64,000 nt of DNA from the NCBI GenBank assembly GCA_944325865.1, contig CALVBS010000001.1:1-64000 (forward strand), in the 5' to 3' direction. A program made the translations under genes and the position numbers. The first letter of the stretch is position 1. Each line of letters opens with the position of its first letter. The DNA comes from Candidatus Gastranaerophilales bacterium (lineage in GTDB: Bacteria > Cyanobacteriota > Vampirovibrionia > Gastranaerophilales > Gastranaerophilaceae). Below are positions 11,355-16,654 of the stretch, one piece after another. Under the pieces are notes generated by a model. It worked only from the letters and a program-made list of their open reading frames with translations, was not told the origin of the DNA and searched no databases.

Positions 11355-12113
11355 ATGAAAAAGAACGCTTTTACGCTCGCGGAAGTTTTGATAACTCTCG
11401 GGATAATCGGAGTTGTTGCAGCAATGACATTGCCTGCGTTGATGGCTGATTACAAGGCAAAAGAATTGGAGGTTCGGTTCAAAAAAGCACAGTCTGTTAT
11501 ATGGAATATACATCAGCGAATGATTGCTGATTATGGTAGTGTTTACGGTACTTTTATACAGAAAGATGTTATTATGACCGATAATGAGAGCGAAAAGGCA
11601 CTCAGGTATAAATATATAGAAGCATTTATGAAATATGTTAACGGCGGGAAAATTTGCACATGGGGGAATGCAATTTTGTCCTGTATGAATAAAAGTAATC
11701 CTGTTGATTACAAAACTTATGACGGAAAAAATACGGCACATTTGACAGCAGATGCTGTTACTGACAGGGTGGTTGTTGCTCCTGACGGTATTACAATTTT
11801 CTTTGGCAACACAGAATACAGAAATAACAGAATTTATGTTGATACAAACGGAGCTCTGAAAGGACCTAACAGATTAGGATTTGATTTATTTGCATTTGAT
11901 GTTGATTCAAATGATAAAATTATTCCGCCAAAGACTTTCGGTGCTGCTGGAGATAACCTTGTCACGGATGATGGAGAGTCCGGTACTACAAATGATTGTT
12001 CTATTAAGAAGAAGGGAAACAAGTATAACGGTTTCGGGTGTACTATTTTTGCAATGAATGACCAAAATCCGGATAATACGTCTGTATCATATTGGAAAAA
12101 TCTGCCAAAATAA
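11355..12113 (+). CDS. prepilin-like (type IV pilin/pseudopilin N-terminus) protein, intact
   Basis: 252 residues from ATG 11355 with GGAGG upstream. The N-terminus KKNA|FTLAEVLITLGIIGVVAAMT is a prepilin leader with cleavage before Phe, Glu at +5 and one membrane helix that packs into a pilus or pseudopilus. The globular part contains VDTNGxxxGPNxxGxDxFxF (about 155-185) and ends YWKNLPK. These blocks recur in the broken copies at 7383 and 18722, so it belongs to the same subfamily. Two cysteines near the C-terminus may form a disulfide. Major versus minor pilin, or a free surface protein, cannot be told. No pilus assembly genes are in the window. Confidence 0.85.
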   Translation: MKKNAFTLAEVLITLGIIGVVAAMTLPALMADYKAKELEVRFKKAQSVIWNIHQRMIADYGSVYGTFIQKDVIMTDNESEKALRYKYIEAFMKYVNGGKICTWGNAILSCMNKSNPVDYKTYDGKNTAHLTADAVTDRVVVAPDGITIFFGNTEYRNNRIYVDTNGALKGPNRLGFDLFAFDVDSNDKIIPPKTFGAAGDNLVTDDGESGTTNDCSIKKKGNKYNGFGCTIFAMNDQNPDNTSVSYWKNLPK

Positions 12114-14314: not shown

Positions 14315-14345
14315 AATCTCCGTTATTATTTAGCGGAGATTTTTT
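14315..14345 (+). terminator. intrinsic terminator after uracil-DNA glycosylase
   Basis: AAATCTCCG / CGGAGATTT stem with an AT-rich loop and a following T run. Confidence 0.9.
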
Positions 14346-14375: not shown

Positions 14376-14414
14376 TTAAATTGTAGATATAATTTACATT
14401 TAAAGGAGATAAAT

Positions 14415-15193
14415 ATGCTAAAATTCAATCGTAGTGCTAATTTGCGGGGGGGGGGCATCCGAATTTAAGCTCTCCTGTTAAGTTTTTTAATGCATTTACC
14501 TTGGCGGAAGTATTAATTACTCTTGGAGTAATTGGTATTGTTGCAGCATTAACAATACCAAATGTTACTTCTCTTTATAGAAAAAACATTGCAGAGACCC
14601 GGCTTGCAAAATTCTATTCCGTAATGAATCAGGCGATACAGCGTTCTGAAGTTGATAACGGGCCAAAAGAATACTGGGCTTCTATGGCATCAGGCCATGG
14701 TGACGAGAGCGATGAAGCGGTTGCCAGTGGAACGAAAATTATGCCTGAAGATTGGTATAACAAATATTTAAAGCCTTACATTCAATCAACAAATGTTAAA
14801 ATTAACGATAAAACAAATAAGGTAATGGTGTATTTTTCTGATGGAGGCTTATGTTTGATTGGAGGTGCAAGTTTTCAGTTTTGGCCGCAGGGGAGTGATT
14901 TTGAAAATTATGGAGAAGATGATTCTGGAAACGCTACTAATAACTATGAGCTTTCCGGTATAAAGTATTTTACTTTTTTCTTTGCTCCTGCGGATAATTC
15001 CGATGCTAATAAATATCATTTTAAGAAGGGTGTTGAACCTTATAAACGTAACTGGGACGGAACTATAGAAAAGCTAAAGAATGATAGTGCAATAGGATGC
15101 AGCAAAACTGTTTCAAATGAAAGAGCTTATTGTACGCCGTTAATTCAGATCAACGGCTGGAAAGTTCCTGATGATTATCCTGTAAAGTTCTAG
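14415..15193 (+). CDS. prepilin-like gene, out of frame at a poly-G tract (possible phase variation)
   Basis: The only ATG with a good ribosome-binding site (AAAGGAG, 6-7 bases) is 14415, but its frame stops after 17 codons. Ten G residues (14446-14455) follow codon 10. With 11 (or 8) G the frame joins the long frame without a stop: 260 codons, giving a basic leader, then NA|FTLAEVLITLGVIGIVAALT, a prepilin signal with Glu at +5. As given, the prepilin frame opens only at TTG 14501, which lies inside the signal and would delete it. The globular part ends with C-T-P-LIQINGWKVPDDYPVKF, nearly the same as the end of the gene at 30160, so both form a second subfamily. Either the locus is phase-off here or the assembly lost one G. 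Confidence 0.8.
14446..14455 (+). repeat. homopolymer tract of ten G
   Basis: A run of ten G in an AT-rich genome, located between the ribosome-binding site/start codon and the prepilin signal of the gene at 14415. It is the longest G run I see in the window. Such tracts change length by polymerase slippage and act as on/off switches for surface genes in other bacteria. Confidence 0.9.
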
Positions 15194-15209: not shown

Positions 15210-15249
15210 GGCAGTGGAATGTTAATTTATTGTCCCACTGCCTTTTTAT
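15210..15249 (+). terminator. intrinsic terminator after prepilin-like gene
   Basis: GGCAGTGG / CCACTGCC stem with a loop of about 16 bases and a following TTTTTATT. It lies at the end of the convergent gene on the minus strand and may also act on it weakly. Confidence 0.85.
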
Positions 15250-16598
15250 TATGATTTAGCTGCTTTATTAATACTAGCGTTCATATTAGCATTGACAATT
15301 CCGGGTTCAAGTTCTGAGCCGGTAACAAGTCTTCTGAATGCATACTGAGCTTTTGGCAGACAGTATGCAAGAAGAAAGCTGCTTATTCCTACATTTGCAA
15401 GAATATTAAATGTTTTTACACCCTTTGCCCGTTTTGCAAATTTTGATATCTGTTTTGCGAATTCATCTGCTTGTAAATTTTTGGCTGATTCAATAGCCAT
15501 ATCCCGGAAGATTTCTATTTCATTTTTAAATTCTCGTAATTTTTTTATATTAACATAAGCTCTCGGGTCACGTACTCCGTTTTCAAGCATTTTTACTTTT
15601 TCAAACTTGTTGGCATATTTAACAAACAAACTTTCAGGATTATTATCTACAAAATCAAGCAAGTCTTTTGCTTCATTTGATTTTGGCAGTTTTATTGTAT
15701 TATTTGTAATTGCTTCAATAAATTTTTTATCGGCAAGCATTAATGGATCAAGGTTTGTGTTAAGTTTGAATACGTTTTTGCATGTTTTATTCAGAATTTT
15801 TTCAATTTGTGTAGGTGCAACATAATTTAAATACATCATTCCCGCCATTTTGAATGCGATATCTTTTGCTTCGTTCCTGTTTCCGTCAGCACCTTTTCGT
15901 GCAGTCACAACTCTGCCGAGTGCGTAGCCTCCGTCAATTACTTCCATTTTCTGTAATGTTGAAAAGTTAGCAAGTGTACCTGCAATGTTTCCTGTGAATG
16001 CAGGTTGTTTGTTTGCTTTTATTTTTTGGAATAAATCTCCTGTAAATGCTTGCGTTTTTTGCTCCTGCAATTCTTTTTTACTTTTTATTTCAGCAATTTT
16101 CTTTGCGGATGAGGCGAATATCATTTTGGGAAGTATAAAACCTATAAATGCAATAGGTATTAATGTTGCTGCTGCAAATCGCCATGCAAGCATATTTTTA
16201 TATGCATTTTGTACCTCTTTTGTTCCAAGTTTTTTCAAGTCATCTATAATTTCTTTAGAAACTTTGCCTTCAAATTTTTTGATGTTATAGTTTAATCCCT
16301 GAAGATTTTCTTCTTCTTTTAATAGTTTAATATTTACATTAGGATTGAAACCTTTTGCTTTAATTATTTTATTGGCAATTCTTTCAACAAGAGGTATTCC
16401 GCCGAGCCACACTGCAGAGCCTGCATATTCATCCAAAAATCGTTCACGGGTTGCAAGTTTTTGGACTTCTTCATCGTTTTCATTTTCTTTGTATGTCAAA
16501 TATACCTTTGACGGAATTTCGATTCCGCAGTCTCTGACCAGTAAGGGGTATATGCTGCTGTTATTACCGATAGCTGATATTATACTTGTTACGTTCAT
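15249..16598 (-). CDS. unnamed membrane protein with two AFTG motifs
   Basis: 450 residues from ATG 16598, which has GGAG upstream; an ATG seven codons earlier has no ribosome-binding site. Numbering from that earlier ATG, the protein has a helical soluble N-terminal part (to about 140), a membrane helix around 145-168 (WRFAAATLIPIAFIGFILP), a Lys-rich segment with QAFTGD and PAFTGN (about 190-215), a long helical region and a second hydrophobic stretch around 405-425. No family I recognise. The AFTG motifs link it to other unnamed proteins here (VSFQG, ISFNG, PAFGN). Upstream is an RNA element that may control it. Confidence 0.6.
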   Translation of the reverse strand: MNVTSIISAIGNNSSIYPLLVRDCGIEIPSKVYLTYKENENDEEVQKLATRERFLDEYAGSAVWLGGIPLVERIANKIIKAKGFNPNVNIKLLKEEENLQGLNYNIKKFEGKVSKEIIDDLKKLGTKEVQNAYKNMLAWRFAAATLIPIAFIGFILPKMIFASSAKKIAEIKSKKELQEQKTQAFTGDLFQKIKANKQPAFTGNIAGTLANFSTLQKMEVIDGGYALGRVVTARKGADGNRNEAKDIAFKMAGMMYLNYVAPTQIEKILNKTCKNVFKLNTNLDPLMLADKKFIEAITNNTIKLPKSNEAKDLLDFVDNNPESLFVKYANKFEKVKMLENGVRDPRAYVNIKKLREFKNEIEIFRDMAIESAKNLQADEFAKQISKFAKRAKGVKTFNILANVGISSFLLAYCLPKAQYAFRRLVTGSELEPGIVNANMNASINKAAKS

Positions 16599-16654
16599 TT
16601 TATATTTTCTCCAATTCAAAATTAAATACTGACCTTATTACGCGATGGGGAAAT

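Follow-up and report, generated by a model that had tools for sequence, protein, structure and literature searches.

The G10 tract at the start of the gene studied here is most likely a slipped-strand poly-G contingency switch of a type IV pilin-like gene, with the studied copy assembled in the OFF state. Replication would add or lose one G, so that the frame of the upstream ATG would enter or leave the prepilin frame. A tract length of the right residue modulo 3 would then yield the complete prepilin, a substrate for the one prepilin peptidase that the genome encodes. The switch would take the form of a portable cassette, made up of a ribosome-binding site (RBS), an ATG, about 10 codons, the G-run and post-tract stops, that has been set before many divergent pilin-like genes. 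Most copies would be OFF at any moment, and each cell would thus show a small, shifting subset of its pilins. For living cells, we infer slippage of the tract, together with expression of the protein, its display at the surface and a benefit in the gut.

The poly-G tract and the pilin-like gene behind it

The window, meaning the whole 64,000-nt stretch of DNA that was analysed, belongs to a Candidatus Gastranaerophilales genome (G000) of 2.03 Mb and 99.45% completeness. Homologous records come from gut-metagenome genomes of Candidatus Gastranaerophilales. The features of the studied locus lie on the plus strand. An inverted repeat seen in the sequence, AATCTCCG..CGGAGATTTTTT at 14315–14345, probably terminates the uracil-DNA glycosylase gene that lies upstream; a consensus terminator scan did not list it. 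An RBS, AAGGAG (14403–14408), lies a short distance 5' of an ATG at 14415, which together with the next 28 nt forms a leader (MLKFNRSANL.., 14415–14445) whose homologues precede other tract genes, a DUF4422 gene among them. The G10 tract, the putative switch, occupies 14446–14455 and starts 31 nt after the ATG. It is followed by a linker, HPNLSSPVKFFNA (14456–14494), that is free of stops in the prepilin frame, and then by the prepilin-like coding region (14495–15193), with a FTLAEVLITLGVIGIVAALTIP N-terminus.

At the assembled length of ten Gs, the frame from the ATG reads MLKFNRSANLRGGGIRI* and yields a 17-aa product that ends at a stop codon at 14466–14468. The neighbouring frame, which contains FTLAEVLITLGVIGIVAALTIP, stays open between the tract and 15193; by arithmetic, it is joined to the ATG frame at 11 G (260 codons, stop counted) or at 8 G (259). 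The original prediction, made from sequence alone, had placed ten Gs between an RBS plus ATG and an FTLAEVL signal, a 17-residue peptide as the present product and an uninterrupted prepilin-like reading frame at 11 or 8 G, and each of these statements is borne out. Its claim that long G runs are rare in such DNA also stands, as shuffled sequences give an expectation of 0.01 G10 runs per window and the 64,000 nt contain no other G run longer than 5 and no C run longer than 6. No in-frame start with an RBS was found between the tract and the prepilin motif of the studied gene, and a plain RNA fold of its 5' end was unexceptional (z 0.49). On the minus strand, a 456-aa gene with no Pfam match (15249–16619 of the window) is kept beside the pilin in syntenic relatives.

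The studied protein has a PF20318 (DUF6613) body (Pfam E=1.6e-22). N_methyl (PF07963) is not among its Pfam matches; the neighbouring gene at 11355 does match PF07963. The class III signal (G/A)-F-T-x-x-E is present as A-FTLAEVLITLGVIGIVAALTIP and opens a hydrophobic N-terminal helix, with E5 invariant and F1 nearly invariant among 22 homologues. The AlphaFold model (mean pLDDT 86) predicts a 53-residue N-terminal helix (residues 3–55) followed by beta strands. VIA-align ranks three type IV pilins as its nearest structures, at middling Z scores of 5.3, 4.1 and 3.9, and a Foldseek search of the PDB with the same model returned nothing under E 0.001. The genome encodes one prepilin peptidase (Peptidase_A24, PF01478, at C3:222510), several T2SSE/PilB-type assembly ATPases (PF00437, at C9:8889 and elsewhere) and MutS. 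At least 69 of its genes carry the strict FTLAEVLIT prepilin motif, a very large repertoire for 2 Mb.

A leader cassette shared across genes and genomes

Across the whole genome, 18 G/C runs of at least 8 nt were found. All are 10–12 nt long, with none of 8 or 9, and composition leads one to expect about 0.1 runs of at least 10 nt and 3 of at least 8. Thirteen of the 18 lie between an RBS plus ATG and a prepilin motif, about 10 codons into the gene. None of the 13 linkers from tract to motif has a stop in the prepilin frame (0 in 371 codons), while the other two frames of the same linkers hold 28 and 52 stops; the corresponding 0 stops across 91 direct-fusion loci is true by construction, and only the 13/13 from this genome is counted as evidence. 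As assembled, two of these 13 pilin-like loci are ON and 11 are OFF.

The other five runs are associated with DUF4422, GT8+TupA, AlgX-like acetyltransferase and autotransporter-like genes, and with the region 5' of a small membrane-protein gene; non-pilin tracts are located in surface-polysaccharide and autotransporter genes. The DUF4422 gene (L015, 4004–4015) is ON and shares its leader cassette with the pilin genes, whereas the AlgX-like acetyltransferase gene (L016, 3955–3965) is split by a G11 and is OFF as assembled. A G12 near the 3' end of the GT8+TupA gene (L014, 3969–3980) is a candidate for C-terminal phase variation, and the gene that follows has a similar end sequence without the run. 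In L022 (3986–3995), a G10 (C10 on the gene strand) lies about 40 nt upstream of the small membrane-protein gene and is possibly a promoter or 5' UTR switch.

Leaders are far more alike than the genes they precede. Over the 28 nt that precede the tract and the 40 nt that follow it, identity is 83–89% between loci whose pilin bodies share about 30% of residues, in a comparison of 969 separate-leader pairs and 12 direct-fusion pairs chosen for similar leaders. The studied gene and the DUF4422 gene have almost identical leaders. As judged from these alignments, the ATG leader with its G-run is an apparently portable cassette standing before divergent pilins.

The studied locus is syntenic in relatives (symporter, uracil-DNA glycosylase, pilin, hypothetical gene), and the locus and its counterparts have three different 5' modules. 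The original prediction had looked to homologous loci. In two syntenic orthologues (those of G012 and G003), a G11 tract is present in the different form of a separate leader; in two others (G004 and G009), the gene starts from a simple RBS-ATG without any tract, with 61–66% identity of the pilin itself, and the missing tract counts against the prediction.

Tracts of at least 9 G were also counted in 39 genomes. Members of the same family carry 0–116 (median 36.5) and members of other families of the order 0–6 (median 2; p=1e-6). The highest values, 115 and 116 tracts per genome, occur in G032 and G010. G032 belongs to another genus, and its modal tract length among the loci sampled is 13. A search of the open-licence PMC literature found nothing on phase variation in Melainabacteria or Vampirovibrionia.

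Frame states, selection and the resting phase of the tracts

Two paralogues within the genome, L023 (G11, OFF) and L024 (G10, ON), have flanks that align without an indel, so a single G separates ON from OFF in this cassette; the difference is observed in paralogues of the studied gene, not in the studied gene itself. Two further same-genome pairs also differ by one G (G11/G12 at L263, and L147/L173). Of the readings weighed, the one originally predicted, a pilin-like protein subject to phase variation, has the best support, if not proof, on the strength of the 13 like loci with their ON and OFF copies, the single-G paralogue pair, the surface-type targets, purifying selection and the abundance of tracts across the family.

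OFF copies are under purifying selection and are not decaying. The dN/dS ratio is about 0.09 (0.021/0.224) between the syntenic orthologues of G003 and G012, whose assemblies both show the short-leader (OFF) state, and about 0.10 (0.091/0.939) between the OFF paralogues L013 and L017 of the own genome. These ratios, the roughly 250 open codons past the tract with no other lesion, and the dozens of intact genes in the same state make it very improbable that the studied gene is a decaying pseudogene with a broken frame, on its way to loss, even if such a gene would also have no intact start joined to its frame as assembled and a 5' end that differs in some relatives.

Beyond what had been predicted, tract length is non-random and mostly one G above the in-frame length. 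The 104 direct-fusion loci include all three phases: 72 would be in frame with one G fewer and 22 with one G more, and 10 are in frame as they stand. Permutation of lengths within genomes gave expectations of 51.3 +/- 3.4 one-over and 21.7 in-frame loci, and the observed 72 and 10 were reached in 0 of 5000 trials, a p-value that overstates independence because the paralogous leaders are related. The one-over excess holds both at a modal length of 11 in same-genus species and at the modal 13 of G032. In the one-over frame, a stop follows at a median of 5 nt past the tract, and in two G003/G012 orthologue pairs the run length has changed by substitution with the phase kept. The studied gene is in the minority OFF phase, one G short. 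In our reading, the default state is OFF and is tuned so that a one-G contraction turns the gene ON. That length follows the flanking phase speaks against free switching, and since most loci are exactly one G over, a free-running switch alone is insufficient as an explanation. Because MutS is present, the tracts may slip more slowly than they would in species that lack mismatch repair.

The same regularity feeds the main rival to a DNA switch, decoding at the RNA level. Here the DNA length would stay fixed at one G over, and either transcriptional slippage with the loss of one G or +1 ribosomal frameshifting would make the full-length pilin, giving low, constant expression with no cell-to-cell switching. 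The strong one-over excess at several tract lengths and in two genera with modes of 11 and 13, the stop about 5 nt past the tract in exactly the one-over frame and the kept phase of the orthologue pairs are all as this explanation would have them. We nevertheless consider it unlikely. The studied gene, like 22 of the 104 loci, is in the other OFF phase; ON copies are present; paralogues differ in length by one G; the separate-leader form described below requires the opposite shift; and the codons before the stop share no common shifty sequence. A prfB-like +1 frameshift at the stop was rejected as a candidate in its own right, there being no common shift codon, and survives just as part of this rival.

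An assembly or sequencing error, with a true length of 11 (or 8) and a gene that is always on, must also be weighed, as homopolymers are error-prone and most public relatives are metagenome assemblies. However, many genomes from different assemblies are dominated by out-of-frame lengths, the modal length is sharp and genome-specific, 53 of 69 G11 tracts fall in one class, and random errors would not track the flanking phase. An error is accordingly quite improbable, and slipped-strand switching remains the preferred reading.

Separate leaders and comparison with known systems

Most tracts in G003 and G012 lie in a leader ORF of their own (ATG, 29 nt, G11), with a stop 11 nt past the tract. The form is found at L094, L106, L134, L188 and about 60 other loci of these two genomes. 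The leader stop is followed first by a CCTCCG element, next by a hairpin (CCGTG..CACGG) and its T-run, and finally, at about +145, by an RBS and ATG that belong to the pilin itself. Of 64 leaders, 58 have such a hairpin with 5 or more T within 8 nt. At G12 the leader frame is longer and mostly extends to +61 to +112, far enough to reach or pass the hairpin; this long state is seen at four loci and the short one at 61. The CCTCCG element can pair, as an anti-Shine–Dalgarno (anti-SD) sequence, with the pilin's CGGAGG (95.8% of cells paired). For the hairpin and the anti-SD pairing, 96–98% of cells are paired, compared with 35–55% when slid, and there are almost no double changes, so both are conserved without covariation. 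A pairing of the CCTCC element with the G-run is likewise predicted by RNAalifold, where there is too little variation for assessment, and a plain RNA fold of a separate-leader transcript showed nothing special (z -0.37).

This layout suggests that the separate-leader form may act as a heritable attenuator. In the off state, a ribosome on the leader would stop early, the hairpin and the anti-SD would be left free, and the gene would be off; in the on state, the leader ribosome would reach or pass the terminator, and the gene would be on. Leader-peptide attenuators of the trp type consist of a short leader ORF, a hairpin with a T-run and then the gene's own RBS. The G003/G012 form has the same layout, which is absent at the studied locus, but its input would be a heritable change in tract length rather than amino-acid supply. 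No paper joining slipped-strand phase variation, a leader peptide and transcription termination was found in the open-licence PMC literature.

A joint reading, offered tentatively and with a good deal more doubt than the switch itself, is that a portable switch cassette has spread before a large, divergent pilin repertoire in a single family of cyanobacterial relatives that do not photosynthesise, that its resting phase is one G over and that in some species it has become a heritable attenuator. Most pilins would then rest off, each one contraction away from on.

Knowledge of large poly-G phasomes comes mainly from Campylobacter, Helicobacter and Neisseria. The present one would belong to common gut bacteria of the cyanobacterial phylum, and its targets would be the pilin-like genes as such, in some species dozens of them per genome, making the surface of these uncultured bacteria a shifting mosaic. 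Because every switch site is known, ON and OFF states could be readable directly from existing metagenomes. The one-over phase and the separate-leader form pose the question of whether cells tune the default state of slippery tracts.

The closest likeness is to Campylobacter jejuni (PMC4965091) and Helicobacter canadensis (PMC2823697), in which coding G-runs turn surface-structure genes ON or OFF by frame, many per genome, and in which C-terminal tracts also occur, as in the GT8+TupA gene of the genome studied here. As a known precedent, 29 poly-G/C loci are counted in C. jejuni NCTC11168, where slippage products increase from G8 to G11 (PMC4965091). The tracts described here differ in belonging to another phylum, in targeting mainly pilin-like genes, in lying at nearly the same codon of a shared leader cassette, and in reaching 116 (of at least 9 G) per genome with most loci one G over. 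In Listeria monocytogenes inlA (PMC2831843), the tract is likewise near the start codon and the OFF peptide is very short (8 aa, compared with 17 aa here), but that tract is poly-A and affects a single gene, whereas here a cassette is found genome-wide. Neisseria species average 15–19 poly-G tracts per genome, and their poly-G/C phase variation (pilC and pilin-modification genes) is similar in that frame switching acts on type IV pilus function (PMC5953494). The genes that switch in Neisseria are those for glycosylation and for an accessory pilus protein, and the variation of pilin comes from recombination with silent copies (PMC5953494); here, each pilin-like gene itself bears a putative switch.
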